Shown here: in pieces, positions 8,859-56,983 of the stretch | Layout of the letters: each line of letters opens with the position of its first letter | Position numbering within the stretch: position 1 is the first letter of the stretch | Assembly: GCF_000758325.1 (NCBI RefSeq) | Contig: NZ_CP009459.1 | Span: forward strand, 3,472,001-3,536,000 | DNA from: Cedecea neteri | GTDB taxonomy: Bacteria; Pseudomonadota; Gammaproteobacteria; Enterobacterales; Enterobacteriaceae | Length of the DNA: 64,000 nucleotides | Direction of reading: 5' to 3' | Made by a program: the position numbers and the translations under genes | Notes under the pieces: generated by a model | The model's database searches: none | What the model was told of the DNA's origin: nothing | The model's input: only the letters and a program-made list of their open reading frames with translations

Positions 8859-8888
8859 GGCGTTCTCCTGAATGGTTTTATCCTGATG

Positions 8889-8990
8889 CCCCTCACCCTA
8901 ACCCTCTCCCCAGAGGGGAGAGGGAATAAAATGCAGAGGCTATCAACGCTTTTCCCCCTCTCCCTTACAGGGAGAGGGCCGGGGTGAGGG
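8889..8990. repeat. Palindromic GGGAGAGGG repeat pair between urtA and urtB
   Basis: Begins CCCCTCACCCTAACCCTC, forms a short hairpin (CTCTCCCCagaGGGGAGAG), and ends with the inverted counterpart GGGAGAGGGCCGGGGTGAGGG. The same unit recurs at 11021-11199, 17989-18132 and 46560-46646. It resembles REP/BIME elements and lies in an operon spacer where it could stabilise the upstream urtA message, giving more binding protein than permease. Confidence 0.8.
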
Positions 8991-9013
8991 TAAAATGCGT
9001 CGAGGGGCGAACA

Positions 9014-11016: not shown

Positions 11017-11020
11017 TTTT

Positions 11021-11199
11021 ACCCTCACCCCGGCCCTCTCCCTGGAAGGGAGAGGGAGGAAAAGTGAAGATCCTCTCCCTTCAGGGCGAGGGGAAAAAAA
11101 GTGAGTGCGTTTGCCTGTTTTTATCTCCTCATCCCGTTCGGGATGCGAGGCTCTGTTTTTATTCCCTCTCCCCTCTGGGGAGAGGGTTAGGGTGAGGGG
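11021..11199. repeat. Triple palindromic GGGAGAGGG repeat between urea carboxylase and gntR
   Basis: Three hairpin units: the first starts ACCCTCACCCCGGCCCTC, the middle is a degenerate CCTCTCCCTTCAGGGCGAGG, the last ends GGGGAGAGGGTTAGGGTGAG. A small hairpin CATCCCGTTCGGGATG sits between them. Same family as the elements at 8889 and 17989. It separates the catabolic half of the cluster from the regulator/transport half. Confidence 0.8.
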
Positions 11200-11209
11200 C
11201 TAAATCCCC

Positions 11210-17965: not shown

Positions 17966-17988
17966 GGCGTGTTCCTTATTATGTGTTG

Positions 17989-18132
17989 CCCCTCACCCTA
18001 ACCCTCTCCCCAAAGGGGAGAGGGGATAAAAAGAGAAACCCGTTTTCCAGGGAGAGGGAATAAAGAATTTAGGCATCTATATTCCCGCTTTTATTCCCCC
18101 TCTCCCTTCCAGGGAGAGGGCCGGGGTGAGGG
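17989..18132. repeat. Palindromic GGGAGAGGG repeat pair
   Basis: Two inverted units (start CCCCTCACCCTAACCCTC, end AGGGCCGGGGTGAGGG) with a third short remnant (CCAGGGAGAGGG) between them. Same family as the repeats at 8889 and 11021. It fills most of the spacer between ydcY and the peptide-binding protein gene. Confidence 0.8.
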
Positions 18133-18142
18133 TTGATATCAC

Positions 18143-29650: not shown

Positions 29651-31788
29651 AGCAGTTAACTACCACGCTCAGCCATCTGGTGAACTGGGTTCAGATGACC
29701 CGCACTTTCTCTCCGCTGCTCGATAACGAAGCGGACAGCCTTTTGGCCCGCCTCCAACAGCTCAGCGAGCGCCACCGTCGCATCAGCGCGCTGGAGGATG
29801 CCCCGCTGACGCTGGGCATTTATGGTCACGCCCTGGACGGCAAAAATCATCTGCTGAATACCCTGCAGGGCAGCCCGAATGGCCGCATTGATATTCAGCT
29901 CGGCGATAAACGGCTGGACTACCTGACGCACATCAACCCTGGCCATACTCCAGCGGCGATGGCGGTGCGTTTTAGCGCGCAGCACCCGCCGGAAGTGGAT
30001 AATTACCCGCTGCTGCTGACGCTGTTTAGCGAGGCCGAACTGGCGCAGCAGTTTATCAACCGCTATCACGCCTCTGACGCGCCCCGCCTGGCAACGTCGA
30101 GTGCGGTTGCCCTGCGGCTGACCGAACTGGAATCCCGCCGTCTGTCTGTGGCTGCGCCAGGTTTAACCCGTGAGCAAACGGCCGATCTGCTGTACGGCTA
30201 CCACCGCCTCCAGCGCCGCCAGCATCACCTGGATGAGCGCCTGGTTTACCGCATGGCAGAGCTTGCGCCTTGCCTTTCGACAGAAGATCGCGCCTCGCTG
30301 TTCGCCCTGCTGTGGGGCGAAGATAGCGCCCTGACGGAAACCTGGCTGCGGCTGGCGCAGGCCTTGCAGCACCTGGGCTGCGTGGAACAGGTTCTGGTCC
30401 CGGCAAGCCTCGTGGTGGACAGTTTCCTGCTGCCTGCCGAAGGTTTTCTCATTCCTTTCGGCCCGGAAGACGCACCAGAACAAGCGGATGTGATGGTTTG
30501 CCCGCTGGTGGGAAATCAGCCGGGTTCACACCTCAGCCTGCCGCAGAATGACCTCGCGCAGCTGTGCGCCGAAGTTATTTTCACCCTCAGCCAGCCGACC
30601 GCGCTGAGCAACGTGGATTTACTGGATATCCCGGCGAATCAGCTCAGCTGGTACACCACCCGGCTTCAGCCGGACACGCTGCTGGTGTGTAACGCCGTCA
30701 GCGAGCGCAGTGAAGTTCAGGCGACGGGGAAAGCGCTGGCATGGTGGGTCGACAGCACACAAAGCCCGGGGCACAGCGCGCTGCCGGGTCTGGTCTGGGC
30801 CATCACGCCGTTTGACGCCCGTTTTACGCTGGGTGCCAGCCTGGATGACGGCGTTCAGCGCCTGATCGGCAACCCGGGCAAGCGCTGGGGCACGCTGCAG
30901 GCGCTCGACAGCAGAAACATGCATCGCCTGCTGGAATGGTTGACTGATGCGCTGAATGGCACCCGCCGGGAACAGCGGCTCGCCGCCCTGCGCGGTGACC
31001 TGGAAACGCAAATCGTCGAACTGTTCCAGCGCTTTATTGACGCGCAGCAGGCCACCCCACAACAGGCTCGCCAGCAGGCGGAGGATCTGGTGCGTGCTCT
31101 GCAGGCCAGAGCGACACAGCACGGTGATTTACTGGCAAGCCTGGTGCCATCCCGGGATGCTCTGCAGCAGATCTGGCTGCAGCACCAACAGCAGCATCAG
31201 CCTAAACCCGAAGGCTTTGCGCTGGAGATAGACTTGTTTGCCGACGCGGCCGACCATATTGCCCCTCAGACCGAAGGCATCAGCTACGCCCGCGCCGTGC
31301 ACCAGCTTTGGGTTAACCACCTGCGCCTGCTGGGCCAGCGTCGGGAAGCCGCGCACCAGTTTGGCCTCGACAGCGTTCAGCTTCAGGCGCTGTGCGATGG
31401 GCTGATCGTCGCCAGCTACCGGCTGGATGTGCCGATGAGGCTGGAGCGCAGCATGCAAAACGGCGATTCCGGGCTTGAGCTGGATATTTCCCGCGCCAGC
31501 ACGGTACTGGGTGATTTTATTGCCTGGCTGGGCTACGCCAGCGTGCCGGTTTCCGATCGCCCTGCAAGCCGTGTCAATAAAGGCCAGGCCGTGTTTGCAC
31601 CACCCGCCCAGGCGGATATCAGCCGCCGTCTGACAAAGCTGGGCGAGCAGCCAACTCGCGGTAACGCCAGCTACGTGTACGACTGGCTGGTCGCACTGTA
31701 TACCCGGGCAACGGAGAATATCGGCTATCAAAACCCGCTGGATATTAACGAGAAGCAGCGGCAGACGCTGGTGAAGCTGCTGGGTTGA
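29647..31788 (+). CDS. srfC: SrfC, P-loop protein of the srfABC operon
   Basis: 713 residues. A Walker A-like loop YGHALDGKNHLL at about 58-69 sits where a GTPase P-loop would be; no other motif is certain. Later regions are helix-rich with Gln/Ala-rich coiled-coil stretches (about 455-520). Annotated family: putative virulence factor SrfC; some members resemble dynamin-like or effector proteins. ATG overlaps the srfB stop (ATGA). No signal peptide. Confidence 0.85.
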   Translation: MKQLTTTLSHLVNWVQMTRTFSPLLDNEADSLLARLQQLSERHRRISALEDAPLTLGIYGHALDGKNHLLNTLQGSPNGRIDIQLGDKRLDYLTHINPGHTPAAMAVRFSAQHPPEVDNYPLLLTLFSEAELAQQFINRYHASDAPRLATSSAVALRLTELESRRLSVAAPGLTREQTADLLYGYHRLQRRQHHLDERLVYRMAELAPCLSTEDRASLFALLWGEDSALTETWLRLAQALQHLGCVEQVLVPASLVVDSFLLPAEGFLIPFGPEDAPEQADVMVCPLVGNQPGSHLSLPQNDLAQLCAEVIFTLSQPTALSNVDLLDIPANQLSWYTTRLQPDTLLVCNAVSERSEVQATGKALAWWVDSTQSPGHSALPGLVWAITPFDARFTLGASLDDGVQRLIGNPGKRWGTLQALDSRNMHRLLEWLTDALNGTRREQRLAALRGDLETQIVELFQRFIDAQQATPQQARQQAEDLVRALQARATQHGDLLASLVPSRDALQQIWLQHQQQHQPKPEGFALEIDLFADAADHIAPQTEGISYARAVHQLWVNHLRLLGQRREAAHQFGLDSVQLQALCDGLIVASYRLDVPMRLERSMQNGDSGLELDISRASTVLGDFIAWLGYASVPVSDRPASRVNKGQAVFAPPAQADISRRLTKLGEQPTRGNASYVYDWLVALYTRATENIGYQNPLDINEKQRQTLVKLLG

Positions 31789-31799
31789 GTTTTTTGGGG

Positions 31800-31820
31800 C
31801 CCTCTTCCAAAGGGAGAGGG
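31800..31820. repeat. Short GGGAGAGGG repeat remnant after srfC
   Basis: CCCTCTTCCAAAGGGAGAGGG, one hairpin arm pair of the repeat family found at 8889. The preceding TTTTTT lies upstream, not downstream, so it is not a good terminator on the plus strand. Confidence 0.6.
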
Positions 31821-31828
31821 CGATCGGT

Positions 31829-31888
31829 ATGTTATTAACCGCCCAGTATCTGCGCCCCGGCACCGCTTTCGGTTCGCTGAACGGGTAA
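31829..31888 (+). pseudogene. Relic of the ABC-F gene 5' end
   Basis: Nineteen codons (MLLTAQYLRPGTAFGSLNG then stop). Bases 31832-31879 align without gaps to 39782-39829, the start of the ABC-F gene, with 43 of 48 identical; the protein there reads LLTAQSLHLDTAFGSL. The similarity stops abruptly on both sides. The copies are direct repeats about 7.95 kb apart and bracket the inverse autotransporter gene. Confidence 0.85.
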
Positions 31889-31931
31889 AACTGTTGTTAC
31901 TAAAGGAACAAAAGTAACTGCCGTTCCCCTT

Positions 31932-31957
31932 CGACTCCCCATTACACCGGGGAGTCG
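31932..31957 (-). terminator. Hairpin after the inverse autotransporter gene
   Basis: CGACTCCCC-ATTACACC-GGGGAGTCG, a perfect 9-bp stem 23 bases past the stop at 31980. No U-run follows on the minus strand, so it may be a stability hairpin rather than a classical terminator. Confidence 0.5.
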
Positions 31958-31979
31958 TTCCAGTCAGTAAAAATCGGCG

Positions 31980-34900
31980 TCAGAAATAAGTTTTTTTCCA
32001 GTTACGCAGGCCGATAACATTAGTCCCACCCAGGTTTGTCTGAGCTGCCCAATTATGATTACTCCCCACATACTTATATGTTTTTCCCGCATAAGTAATA
32101 TGTGCAGTATCCCTTTGTAGACCAGTATCGCCCCTGAAACACGTTACAAGCCCCGACCATGACTGAAAACTATCTAACATCTGATCTGAATCAACGGAAA
32201 CATCCACACTACCCGTGCCTGTTCCAACATCGGTTGCGCCGTTGCCGCCCCTGACACGCTCCATACGCGTATCCATCCTGATAGACATTGGGGCTATAAG
32301 CTTATTGCCATTAAATGATATAGAGGATGTCCCGCGATCGACATTAAGCTGATGTTCTCTGCCAAACCCACTATCCTGACAAGAAGCCGCATCCCACTCC
32401 GCGCTTGAGCTTATTCTAATCCTGGATTCGAAATAATAGTGCTGCCAAATTTGGTGCGGCTCGAGGTTCTTTACGCTCACTGTCCAATCCTTCGAGTCTT
32501 TCAGCTCATCGAATCCTTCGGCCTCTATTCTCACCTGCAGCTTTTTCCCCCAGAATTCGCTTTTTGGCGTTACATCCGCAAAATACAGGTGTCCAGGATT
32601 CGTGTCATACACCTTTTTGAAATGCTCAACATTGGAATCATCGACTACCTTTACCGTCACGCGTTTAGCTGAAACGTATTCATCCCCGCTGTTACCCCAC
32701 TGAATATACATTGAGTCACCGGTATATACAGGAGTCCAGTCACCATTACCTAAGTGTATTTCTGCGCCTTTGTTCTTATATTTAAGAACCTTTAACTCCA
32801 CTTCTGGTTTTGCATAAACTTTTGCATCATAGAACCCGTGGCTGGCATTAAAATAATCATTCGCCGCAGAGAATAACGTCAGGCGAGTCATTCCCTTCCC
32901 TAAATTCCCTTGTAGATCTCCTGAATCAGTGAGGTTAATAACAGTACTGTCACTTGACGACCAGCGATAGGATCCCTCAGACGGTAGTTTATCTACCGTA
33001 TCTTGCCTTACGAATGCCTTTTCATTCGACATGTCCACTATTGTGGCGTTAAATTTGATATTAACTGTCCCCTTATTCAGGATGTAGGAGACATCCACCG
33101 ATTCCGCATTAAATCGCTCAGTAGCCGGTGACCTGATAGTCAATAAGGCGACGCCTGGTTTCACGGCCGAAAGTACGCCCGTATCCTTATTCACCACCAC
33201 CACATTGCCATTATCTGAAAAATATTCGGTCTTAAGGTTATCAACATCAGCATTACTGAATGAAACTAAGATGCGGTGGTCCTTGCCATCAGCCCAGGAT
33301 GCATTTATCTGTTTATTGACTGCGGTCAATTTTGGTGAGGCTTTATCTACCGTCAGATCATAGCTTGCCTGAGCGGGGTTATACTGCGTGTTCCCGGATG
33401 TCTGAACTGTCACCGTCACTTTGCCTGATTTATGCAGCGTGAGCCCCCCTGAGTTGTTGACACTTGCCACACTCTCATCTGAGACTGACCACATTTGCCG
33501 CACACCGCCCGGCACCCCGGTTACTTGTTGAGCGGTATAACTTTTAGCCCAAACTGTGCTCAGATCTTTATTGGCAAAGCGCAGTTCTGGCGTAATAGCC
33601 CCGATATCCACGCTAATATCTTTGCCGATGGTTTTCTTATCTACCTGAGCTCTCAGGATCGCCGTTCCTTTTACGTTTGAGCTGCCTTCTGCGACGTAAT
33701 TACCACCGCCCATATCATTAACTTTAGTTAGCTTTAATCCTGGCAGCGTGCCAACATTCTGGATAGCGACCACCTTGCCCGGAATGACATTCCCGTATTG
33801 ATCTTTCAGATGTACGGTAAAGGTGACCTTCTCTTTCCCATCCGAGCCAATAAGCTTTTTGTCAGCGCCAAAGGTGGACGCCGTGTCATCCACATCGGCC
33901 GGTGATACCATCACCTTGCTTGCTGCTTTGCTGTTTTTATCATCCAGCAACGCAGTCATCAGAAGCTCACCTGCGGTATTGCTGCGTACCTGTGTTTTTG
34001 CAACACCATTTTGGTCCGTCCTGGATGCCCGATCATAGCTTACTGACTGCCCCGTCAGATGCCAGGAGACGTTCATATCCGGTAATTTATTACCATTCGC
34101 ATCGACAACAGTGGCACTATAGGTTACGCCATTAACATCGCCGGCAATGATGCTGTTTTTACTCGCCAGGACTTGCGTGATCTTCCAACTGCTTACGTCC
34201 CCCTTAACTGTCAGAACCTTGGTTTTACTGAACGTCTTGTTATTCACTTTGACAGAAAGCGTTGCTGTCCCTGTCGTTGTGCCGCTTACGTTCATTGCAT
34301 AGTGGCCCGGCTTACCGACAACTTCCTCGCTTCGCTCTACGGTGACCGTAGCCGTACCTGAGGTCTTCTGGCCGCTGACGACCTGACCTGTCAACGGGTT
34401 GTCATATTTATCGCGTAAAAACAGATTCAATATAGCCACTTCTTTCCCGGCTGCGATCGTCGCCGGCGAGAGCGTTAACTCCGAGCGGCTTTCATCTACG
34501 GCTTCGGCACTGAACGCTACATCCGGTGCTGACGTGTTCCCTGACGGCAAAATAAGCTTAACCTCTGCTGTACCCGTTTTCTCACGCGTCAACGTCACTT
34601 TCGCTTTACCCGCACTGTCCGTTATGGTGACCTGCGCAGCCAGTTTGCTTCCTTCATTCGCGTTCCAGGTGACCGGGATCCCTGCACCCAGAGCATTACC
34701 GTTATTATCAACCAGTACGGCGCTGTAGGTTACGACTTGCCCCACGACGGCAGCCCCAGGCGTTACTGTAATAGCGCCTTTTAATACCGCCGAATGCTTG
34801 TCCGCCATAATAGTAAGACTGGCATGCTGGCTGGCTTTCACCCCATTTATCTCAGCGGTAATATCGGTTGTACCAGCCTTTCTGCCCGTAACCTTTGCAG

Positions 34901-37900
34901 CATAAACGCCCGATGATATTTCATCGAAAGCCGTACTCATGCTCATGCTGAGGTCAGGGGTAAAGTGGAGTTCAATATTGTTTTTCAGGCCCGGGAGAAG
35001 ATTACCCTCTGCATCTTTGGCGATAACAGTGACAACGGTATTCTCTTTTTCCGCAACAATATTGGCAGGTCTAATGCTAAGGGAAGATGTATCAGCATCG
35101 ACACTCCCTGCGGTAAAGATCGCATCTTTGTCTGCTGCAACCTGTACACCGCCGCCCAACATAGCGGTGACACGCACCTTACCGGCTGTCGTGCTGCTCA
35201 ATTTAACGTCCGCTATACCCTGGTCGTTGGTATAGCTAAGGCGTGGAACTGTATTGCCAAATGCGGAATCCCAACCCACGGCCACACCGGGCAACTTGTT
35301 ATTGCCATTTTGATCCTTGACCTGCACTCGTATCGCAACGGTATCTACGCCGTTAGCTTTTGCGGTATCACTGCCAATAACCTGAACGCTGTCAATTTGT
35401 GCGGTATTTTGACTGGCAAGCAGTCCAAGCGAGACCTGCTGGTCAGCTTTTCCACTTTTCGCGATGACGGCCCAGATCCCCTCTTTGGTCCCAGTGACAT
35501 TAGCCTGATAGATACCTTGCCCTTTCTCAGCGGCAGTAAAATCTATACTTGCCTCATTACTGCTCCAGTCAACGTGCTGTCCCGGCACTGGGTTATTCCA
35601 GCGATCTGTCAGCCTTAACTCGGCTATCGCAACTGCATTTCCGTCCGCCGTTATTGTATTCGGTGATATTGAAAGCTTGCCATGCTCGACCGTTCCCGGA
35701 GCGAAATCGACCTGCGTGCTGCCTTCATTACCGTTATAAAGCATAGCCGTGACCGTTGTCGTAACGGCCTCGGTGCCCTTCAGTGCAACAACCGCGTCGC
35801 CCTGTGCATTGGTCATGGATACAGAATGACCAAGTTGGTTGCGATCTGCCTTCCAGGCTATGGCCGCACCCGACAACGGATTGCTATTCGCGTCCACCAC
35901 TTTTGCTGTCAATATTACCGGCGTTGGCTGCCCGACTATTGTATTCTGTGAATCTGCAGTCACTGTTACCCTGCCGGTAGCCGCGTCTGCCTCAGCCTTC
36001 AGTTTCAACGCATTTTTCGCTCCGTTGTTAAGCTTCGCATCAATGTTAACTTCTCCGGCCTTAGTGGTTATCAGCGTGGCAAAAGCGAAGCCATTTTTAT
36101 CGGTAAGTTGCTGCTCTGGCGTGATAGCTGCACCGTCTTTGCTGCTTAACATGACAGTAACCCCTTCCAGAGGGTTGTCATGAACGTCGCGAACCTGTAC
36201 GACCAGTTGTACCGGATCAACGCCGTTGGCGGTGAGTGTCTGTCGATCGCTGGTAAATTGTTTAATCAGCCCCTGATCTTTATCAGCAACAAAGGCAAAG
36301 GGGGATGCGGATTGCGATGTAGACTGAATGGATGCGGTAATCACCACATCAGCGTGGCTCTTTGTGCTGGTTACTGGCGTTTCAGCCACCCCATTCTCAT
36401 CAGTATAAGTCCGGGTCTTACCGATAACGACGACGCTATCGTCTTTGTTAGACGTCCAGTCAACCGGCATATCTGAAAGCAGGTTGCCGTGCTTATCCGT
36501 CACAACGGCCTGGAACACGGCGGGCGTTATACCATCGGCAATGCCGGAAGCTTCCATCCCATAGACAGAAGCAATGGTTGCAGATCCCGTGTGCCCAATA
36601 AAAGTGGTTTCCCGCGTAACTGCAGCCTGATTCACGCTGGCCGTTACGTAGGATATCCCGGCAAACGTGCTGGTTAGCGTGGTGTTTGCCTGCCCCTGAG
36701 CATCAGTTTTAACGCTTGTTTCTGCAAGTTTTGCCCCGTTATCCGCACTCAACGCCACCGGCATATCCGGCACGGGATTGCCCTGCGCATCCATGACTTT
36801 CACGCTGATGGTTTTCGGTGTTGTGCCGTCCGCCATGGAGATGTCAGGCGTCACAGTGAGATCTTTATCCGCTATCCATGCCGTGGCAGAATCGGCACGG
36901 AAGGTCAGCTTCACGTCTTTAGTTCCATTGCCATTAATACTGGCAGTAACAGCCGTTTCACCAGCCCGAATGCTGGTTACCGGCACGGTAACCTCTCCTT
37001 GCTCGTCCGTCTCCGCCGTATCCGGAACGAAAGCTTCATTGTCAGCCTTTAAGCTGACAGCCTGGGCAGGAACAGGGATGTTATTGGCGTCAACGACCTT
37101 CACTTTAATTTTGTTTTCGGCTTGGCCATTGGCAATCGCGTTATCCGCGACAGCTTCCAGCGTTTCAATCCATGCGGTGAGATCGTCTGCCACCGTTGTC
37201 ACTTGTGTAGAGAAGCGCATATTTCGCGTTACAACCGCCACCGTAAACAGCCCAGAAACGTTACCCGCCGTCAATGTGGCGACATATTCGCCGGCAGCAG
37301 TGCGGGTAAAATCTGTCACGGTAGGCGCATCGCCATAATTCAGGGCTGTTGCTACCTCTGCGCTGATTTCATCAGCAGCAATATCGACCGGATTATTCTC
37401 ACGATCTCTAATTAAAAGCGTCAGCAATTGCTGCGCTTTTCCATTAGCAGGTAAGGTTACGTTGGCAGGTGATAAAGTACTCGTATTGCTATCGATAGCG
37501 GCCTGAATAACCGTTACTTGAGTGTCTGCGCGTTGAGAAACGTTGCCTTTTTTATCCACGGCTACAGCACTTACGGTATAGGTATTGACAGCATCTGGCC
37601 CCGTCTGGATATTTGGTAATACAACAGCCCAATCCACACCGTTCTGAACGACTTTCCCTCCAGCAGAGAGCAAACCGGAAATCGACCAGTCGATCCGCTC
37701 CAGCCCATATTTACTGTTTACAGAAACATCCAACGTTTTTTGTTCACCAGCATACCCAGCGATCAAGTCTGCTGTACGCAGATGAATAACATCTTTCTTA
37801 CGATATTCCAGGACGATATTATTATTACGTTCAACTAAATCGTAGCGGCTACCGAGCAGACTGCGCGGGGCGCCAGCGGCATCTAATTTGATCTGCCGCT

Positions 37901-39038
37901 GCCATGGCACACCAATCTGGTAATTCAAATCCGCGCCGAATCGCGTATCATTCTGACCGGATTTCCCCTTGCGTTGCTCAGCGTTAAACGTCAGCAGCGG
38001 TATAGGGGTATAATTTACCCCGAAGGTAAAGGCATGTGGATCTTGCTCGCGGGTACCCTTGCCGAAAAGCGCTACTTCTTTGCCGTAATATTGCTCATAG
38101 GTCAGCTTTCCGCCCAGTTGAGGTAGCGCTGGCAGCCATGCCTGCAGCCGAAGATCCCAACCGTTTGCCGGCCGTTCCTTATAGTCCTCGAAATCACGTG
38201 AATTCTTCCATTCGGTCAGACGATGGTAGCTATTGGCACTCAGTTTCAGAAAGTCGCGCCAATATTCCACTCCCAACCCCAGACGGGCGAAATCGCGGGA
38301 AAGGTCGTAGTCCAGGAAAACATTGCCACCCAGCATCCAGTCTTCATAAAACTGGCGATATCCAATACCTATATTTGACTGGGCACGGTCATCGGTTCGA
38401 TGCAGACTCCCCTGGGTAAAGGCCAGACGATGATCCTGTTCATAAAAAGGAACCAACAGATCAAGCTGAGAGTTTTTCAGCGAAAAGTTCTTATTAGCAT
38501 CAAGTTGTACACGGGCTGTACCGAACCGACTCATCCACTGCTGAATTTCACTGTTCGCTGCCCCTGTCGCTATTCCTCTGGCCATGGATGCGGCTGCATC
38601 ACCGTTAGGTCGACTTGCCAGTATACCGCCGGCTTTCGAGGCTATGCCTGCAACTTCATGCGCTTGCGCATCTGAAGTCTGCTTTTTGTCCCACTGAATT
38701 TTAGACGAAGGGCCCCCGGGTACGTCGAGTTCATCCCCCATTTGCAGGTTGTCGAAACCTTTAGCAAAGGTGCGGAACTGGTTCAGCTTACGTAACTCGT
38801 CCAGCGTCATATTATATTTTTTCGCTACACTGGAAACCGTTTCACCAGCCGACAGCGTATATACCTGGTTTCGGGTTGTATTATGCGACGCACTTTGTAA
38901 AAACTGTTTATCACTTCCCGCACCTATTACAGCAGGTGTGAATGCTACTGCAAGTGGAGACAATATCTGGATACCAACATTAAACCAGACCAACAGTTTT
39001 TTACGAAATGAAGCGAAAACAATGGGTTTATCAGACAT
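31980..39038 (-). CDS. Inverse autotransporter adhesin (intimin/invasin family)
   Basis: 2352 residues. Order: long signal region (1-41, YeeJ-like), LysM domain (about 57-106, YTLSAGETVSSVAKKYNMT) for peptidoglycan, 12-strand beta-barrel (about 155-430), about 13 Big_1 Ig-like repeats (about 515-1790, recurrent VKVVDANGNPVP-type strands), about three Big_2 repeats (1790-2130) and a C-terminal tip with a probable Cys pair (AASCQDSG and LVTCFRG). The N-terminus stays in the outer membrane and the Ig rod projects outward, giving adhesion or biofilm functions. The 3' part uses more AT-rich codons than the srf genes, a sign of transfer. Start ATG with AAGGACTGACTTCT. Confidence 0.93.
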   Translation of the reverse strand: MSDKPIVFASFRKKLLVWFNVGIQILSPLAVAFTPAVIGAGSDKQFLQSASHNTTRNQVYTLSAGETVSSVAKKYNMTLDELRKLNQFRTFAKGFDNLQMGDELDVPGGPSSKIQWDKKQTSDAQAHEVAGIASKAGGILASRPNGDAAASMARGIATGAANSEIQQWMSRFGTARVQLDANKNFSLKNSQLDLLVPFYEQDHRLAFTQGSLHRTDDRAQSNIGIGYRQFYEDWMLGGNVFLDYDLSRDFARLGLGVEYWRDFLKLSANSYHRLTEWKNSRDFEDYKERPANGWDLRLQAWLPALPQLGGKLTYEQYYGKEVALFGKGTREQDPHAFTFGVNYTPIPLLTFNAEQRKGKSGQNDTRFGADLNYQIGVPWQRQIKLDAAGAPRSLLGSRYDLVERNNNIVLEYRKKDVIHLRTADLIAGYAGEQKTLDVSVNSKYGLERIDWSISGLLSAGGKVVQNGVDWAVVLPNIQTGPDAVNTYTVSAVAVDKKGNVSQRADTQVTVIQAAIDSNTSTLSPANVTLPANGKAQQLLTLLIRDRENNPVDIAADEISAEVATALNYGDAPTVTDFTRTAAGEYVATLTAGNVSGLFTVAVVTRNMRFSTQVTTVADDLTAWIETLEAVADNAIANGQAENKIKVKVVDANNIPVPAQAVSLKADNEAFVPDTAETDEQGEVTVPVTSIRAGETAVTASINGNGTKDVKLTFRADSATAWIADKDLTVTPDISMADGTTPKTISVKVMDAQGNPVPDMPVALSADNGAKLAETSVKTDAQGQANTTLTSTFAGISYVTASVNQAAVTRETTFIGHTGSATIASVYGMEASGIADGITPAVFQAVVTDKHGNLLSDMPVDWTSNKDDSVVVIGKTRTYTDENGVAETPVTSTKSHADVVITASIQSTSQSASPFAFVADKDQGLIKQFTSDRQTLTANGVDPVQLVVQVRDVHDNPLEGVTVMLSSKDGAAITPEQQLTDKNGFAFATLITTKAGEVNIDAKLNNGAKNALKLKAEADAATGRVTVTADSQNTIVGQPTPVILTAKVVDANSNPLSGAAIAWKADRNQLGHSVSMTNAQGDAVVALKGTEAVTTTVTAMLYNGNEGSTQVDFAPGTVEHGKLSISPNTITADGNAVAIAELRLTDRWNNPVPGQHVDWSSNEASIDFTAAEKGQGIYQANVTGTKEGIWAVIAKSGKADQQVSLGLLASQNTAQIDSVQVIGSDTAKANGVDTVAIRVQVKDQNGNNKLPGVAVGWDSAFGNTVPRLSYTNDQGIADVKLSSTTAGKVRVTAMLGGGVQVAADKDAIFTAGSVDADTSSLSIRPANIVAEKENTVVTVIAKDAEGNLLPGLKNNIELHFTPDLSMSMSTAFDEISSGVYAAKVTGRKAGTTDITAEINGVKASQHASLTIMADKHSAVLKGAITVTPGAAVVGQVVTYSAVLVDNNGNALGAGIPVTWNANEGSKLAAQVTITDSAGKAKVTLTREKTGTAEVKLILPSGNTSAPDVAFSAEAVDESRSELTLSPATIAAGKEVAILNLFLRDKYDNPLTGQVVSGQKTSGTATVTVERSEEVVGKPGHYAMNVSGTTTGTATLSVKVNNKTFSKTKVLTVKGDVSSWKITQVLASKNSIIAGDVNGVTYSATVVDANGNKLPDMNVSWHLTGQSVSYDRASRTDQNGVAKTQVRSNTAGELLMTALLDDKNSKAASKVMVSPADVDDTASTFGADKKLIGSDGKEKVTFTVHLKDQYGNVIPGKVVAIQNVGTLPGLKLTKVNDMGGGNYVAEGSSNVKGTAILRAQVDKKTIGKDISVDIGAITPELRFANKDLSTVWAKSYTAQQVTGVPGGVRQMWSVSDESVASVNNSGGLTLHKSGKVTVTVQTSGNTQYNPAQASYDLTVDKASPKLTAVNKQINASWADGKDHRILVSFSNADVDNLKTEYFSDNGNVVVVNKDTGVLSAVKPGVALLTIRSPATERFNAESVDVSYILNKGTVNIKFNATIVDMSNEKAFVRQDTVDKLPSEGSYRWSSSDSTVINLTDSGDLQGNLGKGMTRLTLFSAANDYFNASHGFYDAKVYAKPEVELKVLKYKNKGAEIHLGNGDWTPVYTGDSMYIQWGNSGDEYVSAKRVTVKVVDDSNVEHFKKVYDTNPGHLYFADVTPKSEFWGKKLQVRIEAEGFDELKDSKDWTVSVKNLEPHQIWQHYYFESRIRISSSAEWDAASCQDSGFGREHQLNVDRGTSSISFNGNKLIAPMSIRMDTRMERVRGGNGATDVGTGTGSVDVSVDSDQMLDSFQSWSGLVTCFRGDTGLQRDTAHITYAGKTYKYVGSNHNWAAQTNLGGTNVIGLRNWKKTYF

Positions 39039-39401
39039 AGAAGTCAGTCCTTTATTAGAGATGAAACAGTCCTTTGGGTACTCAATAAAAAATACAGCGA
39101 CTCACTTAGATGGAATTACACTTATTCATTAAAATAACTCGTTATGGCAACACTTAATTTCACACCAAATTTATAAGAAATCCCAAACCCTAATAATGTA
39201 GTTGGCTCCAACACCAAATAACAATAAGTTCATACAAGGAAAAGAATAGTCCTTCATGAATGTAGGACTATTCCTTCAAGATGAAGAAACCTAAAACCTT
39301 TACTGATATAAAACAATTCAATAACATTAAACCATTTAATATAAAATAGATTAATTAATAAGAGGTAAACTATTCGTCTCATCTGACTTTTCAAAAATAA
39401 A
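39039..39401. other. AT-rich spacer upstream of the adhesin
   Basis: No gene is supported here. It holds the adhesin promoter region and, at 39244-39273, a strong hairpin. Base composition is clearly more AT-rich than the flanking housekeeping genes. Confidence 0.6.
39244..39273. repeat. Perfect 10-bp inverted repeat
   Basis: GAATAGTCCT-TCATGAATGT-AGGACTATTC in the spacer between the adhesin and the ABC-F locus. Could be a terminator, an operator or the end of a lost element; no partner copy is seen in the window. Confidence 0.6.
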
Positions 39402-39515
39402 GTTAACGAAAACCATGTCGCCAGCTGGGTCACCCTGAAGATTCTCTCCGGCCTTACTGCCGCATTCTCTGTAGTTATCAAACAGGCGAACACAACAAAT
39501 TCTGGCAGGTGGTAA
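39402..39515 (+). pseudogene. Decayed DUF2000 gene fragment
   Basis: Translated, it starts VNENHVASWVTLKIL and runs on through LTAAFS to a stop. The intact DUF2000 gene at 54256 reads VNYDYVASWITLKIH followed, after five extra residues, by LTAAFS. At DNA level GTCGCCAGCTGG.TCACCCTGAAGATTC is shared. The fragment lacks the start and the whole C-terminal half, so it is a remnant of a third DUF2000 copy. Confidence 0.75.
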
Positions 39516-39565
39516 ACCATTAGCTTTCCCGCTACAATCCGCTCACCTATTCACTCAACATATAT

Positions 39566-39573
39566 AAGGAGGA
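39566..39573 (+). promoter_or_regulatory. Strong Shine-Dalgarno of the ABC-F leader ORF
   Basis: AAGGAGGA, nearly full complementarity to the 16S 3' end, six bases before the leader ATG at 39579. A TACAAT at 39533-39538 is a reasonable -10 box for the transcript; no good -35 is visible. Confidence 0.65.
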
Positions 39574-39578
39574 TCCCC

Positions 39579-39662
39579 ATGATGTCTTGTGAGCGCTTTA
39601 ACCGTTCGCATACTTTTGGCGATCGTCTCTGCTCAAGCGTTATCGGTTCCGTGCTGCGATAA
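39579..39662 (+). CDS. Putative leader peptide upstream of the ABC-F gene
   Basis: A 27-residue ORF (MMSCERFNRSHTFGDRLCSS, then VIGSVLR) with an exceptionally good ribosome binding site, ending 110 bases before the ABC-F start. Its last codons run into the first arm of a strong hairpin at 39631-39675 and its stop codon (39660-39662) lies in the second arm. That geometry is typical of ribosome-dependent attenuators such as the erm and ABC-F leaders of Gram-positive bacteria. No similarity to a known arrest peptide was recognised. Confidence 0.6.
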   Translation: MMSCERFNRSHTFGDRLCSSVIGSVLR

Positions 39663-39763
39663 CTTCGGCTTGAGCGAAGAAACTTACTGAATCCCTTCTC
39701 TCGGGCTTACCGGGTTATCGTCAGCGTTATACGACGAGGCGTTTGTACGCCATAACTCTTGAG
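39631..39763 (+). promoter_or_regulatory. Alternative hairpins in the ABC-F leader (putative attenuator)
   Basis: Arm A GCTCAAGCGTTATCG (39631-39645) pairs with arm B CGATAAC-TTCG-GCTTGAGC (39657-39675): 7 plus 8 bp with a 4-base bulge. A can instead pair with arm D ATAACTCTTGAG (39752-39763) in 11 of 12 positions; D contains the GAG that is the likely ribosome binding site of the ABC-F gene. B can pair with a second GTTATCG at 39714-39720, and GTTAT (39726-39730) plus GGCG can pair with CGCCATAAC (39748-39756). The repeated complementary copies imply mutually exclusive folds. Confidence 0.6.
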
Positions 39764-39772
39764 TAAGCACAT

Positions 39773-41503
39773 ATGAGCACTTTATTAACCGCCCAATCTC
39801 TGCACCTCGACACCGCTTTCGGTTCGCTGCTGGAGTCCATCACTTTTACCCTGAAAAAAGGCGACCGTATTGGCCTGATCGGTCACAACGGCTGCGGCAA
39901 AAGCACCCTGCTGAAACTGCTGGACGGCACCCTTTCTCCTACCACTGGCTCGGTGACGCGTGCGGCAACCTGCCTGATGGCAAGGGTTGAACAGCATCTG
40001 CCGGAAAGCCTCAACGCGATGACCATGCTCGATGCCGTGCTGGCGCAAATTGAGGAAAACCAGCGAGATAGCGAACGCTGGCGGGCAGAAGCCCTGTTGG
40101 CAAGCATGGGCTTTAGCGAAACGGACTGGCGGCTGACCTCCGGCACGCTGAGCGGCGGGCAGCATACTCGCCTGCTGCTGGCGCGAGCGCTGATCAGTGA
40201 ACCAGATTTACTGCTGCTGGATGAGCCCAGTAACCACCTGGACTTGCCCACGCTGCTGTGGCTGGAACAGTTCCTGCGCAGCTGGAGCGGCAGCTTCGTG
40301 CTGGTTTCGCACGACCGCAGCCTGCTGGATAACGTCACCAACGGTAGCTGGATCCTGCGCGATCGCTCGCTGCATTTCTTTGCGCTGCCGTGTTCTCAGG
40401 CACGTAGCGCGTTGGAAGAACGTGACAAGACCGATGCCCACCGTCATCAGGCGGAGCAAAAGGAAATTGATCGCATTACCGCCAGCGCCAAACGGCTGGC
40501 GATTTGGGGCCGGGTCTACGACAACGAAGATCTCTCCCGAAAAGCCAAGCAGATGGAGAAGCGCATTGACCGGCTGAAGGACGAGCAAACTGAGCTCACG
40601 GCGGGCAGCCAGTGGCAGCTTAAGCTGAAAGGCGAAGCGCTGATTGCCGACAGGCTGCTGGAGCTGGAAGCGTTAAACGTTCGGCCCGCGCCGGAGTGTG
40701 AGCCGCTGTTTACCCTGCCCTTACAAAGGGTGAAAAGCGGCGACCGCGTGGCGGTGATAGGCCGGAACGGCTGCGGCAAGTCTTCTCTGCTACGCCTGCT
40801 TTGGCAGCAGTACCAGCAGCCGGAACGTGAGGACGCTATTCGCCTGCATCCTCGCGTGCACATGGGGTATTACGACCAGACGCTACACCAGCTTAACGAC
40901 GGTGATTCGCTGCTGGCGGCGCTGGAGCCTTTTGCCCCGCTCAGCGAGCAGGACCGGAAAATGGCGTTAATCAGCGCCGGATTCCCGTGGCTGCGGCACC
41001 AGCAAACCGTCAGTACGCTGAGCGGCGGCGAACGTTCGCGTCTGCTGTTCGTTGGTCTGACCCTGGCCCGCTACTCCCTGCTGATGCTGGATGAGCCAAC
41101 CAACCACCTGGACATGGAAGGCAAAGAGGCGCTGGCGGAAACGCTGCAAACCTTTGAAGGTGGCGTGCTGTTAGTGACCCACGATCGGGAATTGATCGCC
41201 AAAGGCTGTAACCGCTTCTGGCTGGTGGATAACGGCGTGTTAAGCGAATGGCACGACCTGGACGCGCTCTATGTCCTGCTGACCGCCGAGGAAACCGGGC
41301 AGCCGGTGGCCGACGCAAAGCCGCAGCCAAAGCAAACCGTGGCTCAGCCCTGGCGTGAAAGCGATGCACTGCTGGAACGGCTTATCGAGCTGGAAGAAAA
41401 GCTGGCGGAGGACGTGGCGCGGAAGGAAAAGCACCAGAAACCGGCGCTGCAAAAACAGTGGCGGGAAGAGATTGAGGCGTTAAATAAAAAGTTAGCGATT
41501 TAA
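39773..41503 (+). CDS. ABC-F family ATPase (ribosome-associated)
   Basis: 576 residues with two ABC domains and no TM segments: Walker A GHNGCGKST (about 37-45) and GRNGCGKSS (about 328), signatures TLSGGQHTRLLLARAL and TLSGGERSRLLFVGLTL, Walker B LLLLDEPSNHLD and LLMLDEPTNHLD, linker rich in charged residues (about 225-280), and a C-terminal coiled coil. ABC-F proteins bind the ribosomal E site; members are translation factors (EttA, Uup) or antibiotic-resistance proteins (Vga, Lsa, Msr). It is not EttA, Uup, YbiT or YheS by its termini. A leader ORF precedes it and a terminator follows. Confidence 0.85.
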   Translation: MSTLLTAQSLHLDTAFGSLLESITFTLKKGDRIGLIGHNGCGKSTLLKLLDGTLSPTTGSVTRAATCLMARVEQHLPESLNAMTMLDAVLAQIEENQRDSERWRAEALLASMGFSETDWRLTSGTLSGGQHTRLLLARALISEPDLLLLDEPSNHLDLPTLLWLEQFLRSWSGSFVLVSHDRSLLDNVTNGSWILRDRSLHFFALPCSQARSALEERDKTDAHRHQAEQKEIDRITASAKRLAIWGRVYDNEDLSRKAKQMEKRIDRLKDEQTELTAGSQWQLKLKGEALIADRLLELEALNVRPAPECEPLFTLPLQRVKSGDRVAVIGRNGCGKSSLLRLLWQQYQQPEREDAIRLHPRVHMGYYDQTLHQLNDGDSLLAALEPFAPLSEQDRKMALISAGFPWLRHQQTVSTLSGGERSRLLFVGLTLARYSLLMLDEPTNHLDMEGKEALAETLQTFEGGVLLVTHDRELIAKGCNRFWLVDNGVLSEWHDLDALYVLLTAEETGQPVADAKPQPKQTVAQPWRESDALLERLIELEEKLAEDVARKEKHQKPALQKQWREEIEALNKKLAI

Positions 41504-41507
41504 GCGT

Positions 41508-41538
41508 AAAGCCATCCTTCGGGATGGCTTTGTTTTTT
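41508..41538 (+). terminator. Rho-independent terminator of the ABC-F gene
   Basis: AAGCCATCC-TTCG-GGATGGCTT followed by TGTTTTTT, directly after the stop codon. It overlaps the end of the convergent hydrolase gene. Confidence 0.93.
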
Positions 41539-56861: not shown

Positions 56862-56983
56862 AAAAAAAAGCCGACTTTAAAAGTCGGCATTGTATGAATC
56901 AATTGTGCTATGCAGTAATTCTAAAAAAGGAAGTAAGACAATATGGAGCGCAACGCCCATCGCTTGACGTTGCATTCACCTGC
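56862..56983 (-). ncRNA. fnrS: FnrS small regulatory RNA
   Basis: The minus strand opens GCAGGTGAATGCAACGTCAA and continues with the seed GCGATGGGCGTTGCGCTCC, both as in E. coli FnrS, and ends in a GCCGACTTTTAAAGTCGGC hairpin with TTTTTTTT. About 122 nt. FnrS is Hfq-dependent, induced anaerobically by FNR and represses aerobic metabolism mRNAs such as sodB and maeA. The final hairpin also ends the upstream zntB transcript if it reads through. Confidence 0.95.

Follow-up and report, generated by a model that had tools for sequence, protein, structure and literature searches.

A conserved leader open reading frame and alternating RNA arms probably control a PAF1-like ABC-F gene in Cedecea neteri

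The examined DNA of Cedecea neteri, a stretch of 64,000 nucleotides (contig NZ_CP009459.1, positions 3,472,001 to 3,536,000) referred to here as the window, contains a gene for a PAF1-like ABC-F ATPase. This gene is preceded by a short leader open reading frame (ORF) and by RNA arms that can pair in alternative ways (Table 1). The leader and the arms are real features of the DNA upstream of the ABC-F gene and are conserved far beyond this genome, in numerous bacteria from guts and from water. We propose that the gene is probably controlled by translational attenuation, in which a ribosome stalled on the leader turns on the production of the ABC-F protein. We infer that a drug would cause the stalling and that the protein would confer resistance. 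If true, this would extend leader-controlled ABC-F genes from Gram-positive to Gram-negative bacteria.

Table 1. Features of the ABC-F locus, with positions numbered from the first letter of the window
Feature	Position	Strand	Basis
-10-like hexamer TACAAT, probable leader promoter, no -35 identified	39533-39538	+	hexamer position in relatives
Shine-Dalgarno sequence (SD) of the leader, AAGGAGG	39566-39572	+	read from the sequence; AAGGAG-type SD also before the leaders of relatives
Leader ORF MMSCERFNRSHTFGDRLCSSVIGSVLR, 27 codons, stop TAA	39579-39662	+	sequence, relatives, pN/pS
Hairpin 0 inside the leader ORF (codons 4-11), then TACTTTTGG; possible RNA-polymerase pause hairpin	39588-39610	+	
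Codons 10-16 (S-H-T-F-G-D-R), strongest coding-type conservation; proposed arrest motif	39606-39626	+	synonymous:nonsynonymous counts
Arm A, codons 18-23 of the leader; partner B or D	39631-39645	+	
Arm B (GCTGCGATAAC + GGCTTGAGCGAAG), spans the last two leader codons and the stop; partner A or C	39653-39679	+	
Arm C; partner B or D	39695-39725	+	
Small hairpin between C and D	39738-39751	+	3/5 pairs changed on both sides, 85.5% of cells paired
Arm D with the weak SD (TTGAG/GTAAG) of the ABC-F gene; partner A or C	39752-39768	+	
ABC-F ATPase, 576 amino acids, PAF1-like	39773-41503	+	sequence, predicted fold, distribution

The leader and its RNA arms

A preliminary description of this DNA had placed a 27-codon ORF with a near-perfect SD 110 bases in front of the ABC-F gene, and its coordinates are borne out by the sequence: the leader stop lies 110 bases from the ABC-F start codon ATG (39773). 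The distribution of the leader was followed in several collections. A scan of genome contigs gave 153 relatives of the ABC-F protein, the best 80 of which were kept (62–97% identity). All 80 of these named loci contain an SD-led leader, located at −188 to −239, which has 27 codons except in two loci with 28 and one (L113) with 30. An order-wide search found a homologue of the ABC-F gene in 32 of 295 genomes, the window's own counted. The leader is present in 29/29 further loci of this search and also in G525; the single 39%-identical homologue found in G160 is without it. The leader also occurs in all ten of the 40 plasmid-collection records that were examined (Morganella, Proteus, two Vibrio, Photobacterium, Aeromonas, three Pantoea and Klebsiella). 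On the DNA level, the leader was matched in 103 of the 392 genomes of the family as defined by GTDB, at a single place in 100 of the 103, and the ABC-F gene adjoins it in all 30 loci looked at, one of which is the window itself. In a class-wide sample, none of the 368 other genomes, some of which share the order, contained the ABC-F gene at E ≤ 1e-100. A DNA search of 5426 E. coli genomes gave matches in four, each consisting only of a 63-base stretch of uup. The named loci nearest to that of the window belong to Enterobacter sp. Cy-643, Enterobacteriaceae bacterium RIT693, Enterobacter sp. Ag1 and Cedecea davisae.

In the Rahnella laticis locus L113 (leader upstream of 2501) the usual stop is lost through a change of CGATAA to CGACAA, and the leader ends three codons later. 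This altered leader is a natural test of whether the position of the stop matters. The ABC-F matches of L130 and L138 contain one in-frame TAA each, and the leader is nonetheless kept.

The arms can form two mutually exclusive structures, and arm D is hidden in both. Structure 1 consists of A:B and C:D, and structure 2 of A:D enclosing B:C. Arm C pairs with B at 39653–39663, and its positions 39705–39717 pair with 39753–39768 of D. The preliminary description had A (39631–39645), B (39657–39675) and D (39752–39763) in the right places, although B extends over 39653–39679 and D to 39768. Its alternative between A:B and A:D was right but incomplete, because B:C and C:D are conserved too, which makes a four-arm, doubly locked switch. 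It had further regarded the copies of GTTATCG/CGATAAC as a second alternative pair; these copies belong to arm C, which had been left undefined, and the one at 39714–39720 does pair with B.

Conservation and compensatory change in the arms were checked in an alignment of 55 sequences, and both are present. The alignment was made of 56 representatives minus L050, which has a longer spacer; L009, which is the window again, was omitted beforehand. Structure 2 has 93.5% of its alignment cells paired and 16 of its 39 pairs changed on both sides (mean in shuffles 7.2, with none of 500 as high), and structure 1 has 89.7% of cells paired and 12 of 36 pairs changed on both sides (shuffle mean 6.9, two of 500 as high). 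Versions of the structures slid along the alignment reach at most 45.8% of cells and 12 pairs for structure 2 and at most 42.1% of cells for structure 1. In terms of paired cells this comparison is biased towards the proposed structures, as they were derived from the window and one relative. The share of paired cells was also obtained for the single helices: B:C (39653–39663 with 39714–39725, 99.3%, 5/11 pairs changed on both sides; 93.1% in its other part), A:B (96.1% basal, 85.1% apical), A:D (91.7%, 3/11 pairs changed on both sides) and C:D (87.5% and 86.8%). With the alignment as its only input, RNAalifold arrived at B:C and the small hairpin unaided. The Rahnella locus L103 has CTCAGG in A and CCTGAG in both B and D, so that three arms are changed together. 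Some Vibrio-type leaders combine TTG in B with CAA in C at sites where others show CTG and CAG. The Aeromonas type has GCTCTTGC in A, which pairs with GCAAGAGC in D; the alignment does not put those columns together.

The constraint on the leader peptide was assessed from the ratio of nonsynonymous to synonymous differences (pN/pS) in 75 unique 27-codon leaders. Codons 2–17 have a pN/pS of 0.62 in frame, compared with 0.92 in both shifted frames. In codons 18–27 the ratio is 2.7; the residues vary freely and the bases little. Thus, selection in this part acts on the RNA, as expected of arms. Synonymous and nonsynonymous differences, given as sums over non-independent pairs, stand at 676:38 for G14, 729:65 for R16 and 361:132 for S10. 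Codon 15 encodes Asp in 63 of the 75 leaders and codon 16 Arg in 70. Stretches resembling S-[HR]-x-[FLY]-[GS] are present in the leaders of other lineages. The codons for G14 and R16 lie outside the proposed helices, between hairpin 0 and arm A, where a stall is predicted to begin to free the SD. From the sequences, S-[H/R]-x-[F/L/Y]-[G/S]-[D/N]-R is likely to be an arrest motif. The third positions of the G14 and R16 codons are only C or T, for which codon usage or a pause site is a possible reason. ErmBL has been reported to stall at an Asp codon, and a parallel with Asp15 of the leader would be speculative; it fails in the Vibrio and Aeromonas types.

Other candidate peptide motifs fared less well. 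C4-E5 and S10-H11 are both within hairpin 0, so that their conservation may be due to RNA pairing. The trailing I-[VA]-L-R-stop at first looked invariant (65 IVLR and 24 IALR among 114 unique leaders). It was rejected because codons 18–27 have the pN/pS mentioned above, GCTGCGATAAC is accounted for by the pairing of B with C, and the SD of the ABC-F gene stays at an unpaired probability of 0.10 when the ribosome is on the last codon. Hairpin 0 itself is formed by GTGA..TCAC in 64 of 92 unique leaders, with other stems predicted in the remaining 28. Its core pairs, 39589–39593 with 39605–39609, are kept almost throughout, and among 71 Enterobacteriaceae-type leaders it shows no excess of covariation over shuffles.

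The position of the leader promoter was deduced from relatives. In 78 of 115 sequences (L079 left out) the best TATAAT-like hexamer is found at −32 to −35 from the leader SD. Homology to the window in blastn starts at 39494–39533 in 10 of 13 relatives, and at 39468, 39562 and 39631 in the others. These positions suggest that the transcript very probably includes the leader. They give no sign of a transcript start downstream of 39580, which would have counted against the preliminary description. The general promoter scan did not list the TACAAT hexamer.

Predicted release of the ABC-F Shine-Dalgarno sequence

The effect of a stalled ribosome was modelled by equilibrium folding with a footprint of −14 to +16 around the P-site codon blocked, for each codon in turn. 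The SD was taken as the stretch −15 to −7 of the ABC-F gene. The fold of lowest energy is structure 2 in the window; in Klebsiella L100 it is A:B with another downstream pairing. Without a ribosome, or with the P site at codons 1–12, the SD of the window is predicted to be unpaired with a probability of 0.10–0.13. This value rises to 0.33 at codon 13 and to 0.55–0.62 at codons 14–22, and falls to 0.49–0.51 at codons 23–24, 0.33–0.35 at codons 25–26 and 0.10 at codons 27–28. Opening at mid-leader P sites and closure at codons 27–28 imply that a stalled ribosome, and not a normally terminating one, would open the gene. None of 200 dinucleotide shuffles of 39630–39756 reached the observed difference of 0.48, the largest being 0.25.

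The same footprint was applied to 37 sequences: 25 of the Enterobacteriaceae type (every fourth unique sequence), seven of the Vibrio/Photobacterium type and five of the Aeromonas type, with L113 left out. The mean unpaired probability of the SD rises from 0.25 in the free to about 0.5 in the stalled state in the Enterobacteriaceae type and from 0.03 to about 0.4 in the Vibrio/Photobacterium type. A measure over −16 to +3 gave a weaker contrast than the SD alone (0.40 to 0.54 for 32 Enterobacteriaceae-type sequences out of 44; L079 and L113 left out). A further measure, anchored on D, covered 123 unique sequences (L068 has no anchor and was left out); the SD rises by more than 0.1 in 74 of them, and in 69 it exceeds both the free and the last-codon state, although the anchor is possibly misplaced in the Vibrio and Aeromonas types. 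These 69 consist of 64/97 Enterobacteriaceae-type, 1/5 Pantoea-like, 3/9 Vibrio/Photobacterium-type, 1/10 Aeromonas-type and 0/2 Morganellaceae sequences. When single loci were compared with 60 shuffles each, no shuffle was as good as the real sequence for L131 and L156, and two were for L084. The predicted SD release is thus lineage-dependent. The earlier suggestion that a ribosome stalled on arm A frees D agrees with the model in the window, where the SD goes from 0.10 to 0.5–0.6, but the prediction fails in several lineages.

The ABC-F protein, the proposed mechanism and its alternatives

The product of the gene has two ABC domains and, between them, a P-site tRNA interaction linker, which is the composition of the ABC-F family. 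The first 22 matches of its predicted fold among solved structures are all ABC-Fs, with resistance and housekeeping types interleaved; therefore the model does not tell the type of the protein. Murina et al. predicted in 2019 that PAF1, found in Vibrio, Klebsiella, Enterobacter, Serratia and Citrobacter, is a resistance ABC-F that had gone unrecognised (PMC6723617). The homologues of the window's gene are found in the same five genera and not in Escherichia. The protein is named PAF1-like from this distribution. It may work like a ribosome-protection ABC-F, although it is not filed as one, and its probable activation by stalled ribosomes suggests that it may assist ribosomes exposed to antibiotics. 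The main text of PMC6723617 uses none of the terms uORF, attenuation, upstream open reading and leader peptide. A search of mostly open-access literature gave, among the matches listed, no account of a leader before this ABC-F gene or PAF1.

We propose the following sequence of events. The leader would be translated constitutively. As long as no ribosome stalls, D would be hidden either by C (A:B with C:D) or by A (A:D around B:C), which amounts to a double lock. A ribosome stalled with its P site at about codons 14–24, just past the conserved F-G-D-R codons, would cover A and leave B free. The free B would then capture C, D would be held by neither A nor C, and the ABC-F protein would be made. 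A ribosome that finishes normally at the stop would cover B, C would re-capture D, and the gene would be off. The likely trigger would be an antibiotic acting on the ribosome and stalling elongation at particular sequences, and the PAF1-like product would then act on the drug-stalled ribosomes. We put forward only tentatively, as a version somewhat less likely than not, that PAF1 provides inducible chromosomal ribosome protection in Gram-negatives, under a doubly locked four-arm attenuator with a leader of 26–28 residues. In this version a new arrest motif (S-[H/R]-x-[F/L/Y]-[G/S], mostly then D/N-R) would sense an elongation-stalling antibiotic, and the same leader would be kept from Aeromonas and Vibrio to Klebsiella. 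An attenuator beside every close homologue examined would be independent evidence that cells produce the ABC-F protein in response to ribosome stalling. The leader itself would offer a direct assay for the inducing compound, and hence for the likely drug spectrum.

The attenuator of ermC is likewise built of four arms. In the Gram-positive ermCL–ermC system the arms are described as alternating, with the SD hidden by default until a stalled leader ribosome re-pairs the RNA and frees it (PMC10219788). The locus in the window shares with such ErmC-like attenuators an SD-led short ORF conserved with the downstream gene (80/80, 29/29 and 10/10 loci) and mutually exclusive helices that, by pair counts and folding, hide or free the SD of the gene. 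It differs from ermC in that the gene encodes an ABC-F protein and not an rRNA methylase, the leader has 27 codons, there is an extra A:D lock, and the locus belongs to Gram-negative chromosomes. The ABC-F leaders described in the literature covered are Gram-positive. They are upstream ORFs (uORFs) before ABC-F genes at which a stall alters the leader RNA: MIN of VmlR, MR[I/M] of CplR, MK[L/Q] of VmlR2 and MAGN of LsaA, these four having 3–4 residues (PMC10201436, PMC9226507), and MsrDL of MsrD (PMC10314930). VmlR, CplR and MsrD are reported to be controlled at least partly via terminators (PMC10314930, PMC10201436, PMC9226507). In contrast, the leader described here has 26–28 codons, no terminator was found, and release in the window is predicted only for stalls at codons 13–26.

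Several observations weigh against translational attenuation as proposed here. The start codon of the ABC-F gene in the window is already unpaired at 0.74 and shows no rise; a P site at codon 15 even lowers this value to 0.22. In the five Aeromonas-type sequences the mean SD value drops slightly, from 0.47 to about 0.4. Only the 69 of 123 sequences given above exceed both reference states in the D-anchored measure, and eight of the 123 fall by more than 0.1. Klebsiella L100 and L157 show no rise, and in a separate check of 15 sequences eight rise by less than 0.1 (two Klebsiella, three Pantoea, Morganella, Proteus and Aeromonas). L100, L149 and L154 are no better than their shuffles, 56–58 of 60 being as good, and Serratia L084 rises in the 15-sequence check and falls in the D-anchored measure. 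As for covariation, the slid control of structure 1 reaches 11 changed pairs against the true 12, a weak margin, and further pair types exceed the shuffles only slightly, 38 and 44 of 500 of which score as high. The leader peptide is only modestly constrained, chiefly at three codons, some Serratia have S14 and C16 in place of G and R, and the conservation of the trailing VLR-stop is accounted for by RNA pairing. The protein misses the NCBIfam model NF000355 for resistance ABC-Fs, with 341.9 bits against a cut-off of 380. Since equilibrium folding ignores kinetics and proteins, the mixed folding results limit the model and do not overturn it.

The modest pN/pS of 0.62 would also suit a general sensor of translation stress of the ToiL type, in which nearly any leader ribosome slowed by a drug or by starvation opens the ABC-F start and the peptide matters little. 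The toiL–topAI system of E. coli is similar in that the uORF is enterobacterial and its codons can hybridise with the ribosome-binding site further downstream, and toiL is reported to sense several drug classes (PMC12121999). The gene it controls is a different one, however, the four-arm alternation is absent from the account of toiL, and a stall anywhere in toiL is said to suffice. In the window, the SD rises only with P sites 13–26 and not 1–12, and the changes in G14 and R16 are mostly synonymous. We regard such a sensor as somewhat unlikely. That the leader acts mainly through transcription attenuation or Rho-dependent termination, with SD hiding as a secondary effect, also appears unlikely. 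MsrD and VmlR are described as using transcription attenuation (PMC10314930; PMC9226507), hairpin 0 with its short T run lies in the leader, and Rho would be expected to act on a gene left untranslated, which has been reported for topAI. Against this, one terminator-like site was found within 39100–39900 where 0.8 were expected, it lies inside the leader ORF, and no T run follows arms C and D. With such sites at chance level, control of the translation start is favoured.

It is also unlikely that the leader serves a housekeeping feedback without drug resistance, being arrested by a metabolite or by a shortage of Arg or Ser aminoacyl-tRNA, or showing an intrinsic arrest that PAF1 relieves. Ligand-sensing leaders have scattered conserved residues; the 26–28-residue leader resembles them, which counts for such feedback, as does its length compared with the 3–4 residues of the leaders of VmlR, CplR, VmlR2 and LsaA (PMC10201436). 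MsrD is also reported to suppress its own leader-dependent induction (PMC10314930), and EttA to act on ribosome pausing. The leader is, however, without a run of one amino acid, and the patchy distribution (103/392 family genomes, and in E. coli 4/5426 with uup only) fits an accessory gene. The lineages without predicted SD release would agree with there being no switch at all, the ORF and repeats forming a passive structured 5′ region or a binding site for a protein or a riboswitch ligand. Such an explanation is very improbable. Every close homologue examined has an SD-led ORF of 26–28 codons (30 in L113) with coding-type changes, the two mutually exclusive structures both have compensatory changes, and no Rfam family matches at the leader at gathering score. 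The only Rfam match in the window is the small RNA FnrS (56866–56983, minus strand, 125.8 bits).

Neighbouring sequences

Directly after the stop of the ABC-F gene, at 41510–41538, the stem AGCCATCC/GGATGGCT is followed by a T run and is likely an intrinsic terminator. Upstream of the leader is a gene for a protein of 2352 amino acids (31980–39038), which we take to be invasin/inverse-autotransporter-like. Beyond it, at 31832–31879, a stretch from the start of the ABC-F gene (39782–39829) is repeated over 48 bases with 90% identity. In L039, L041 and L042 the gene that ends at 31788 in the window sits about 130–210 bases before the homologous leader region. This layout and the copied start suggest that a block of about 7.7 kb (31790–39493) was inserted at this place and that a remnant stayed behind. 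Short repeats at 8888–8993, 11019–11201 and 17988–18133, which look like repetitive extragenic palindromic elements, are also present upstream of the leader in L039 and L041.

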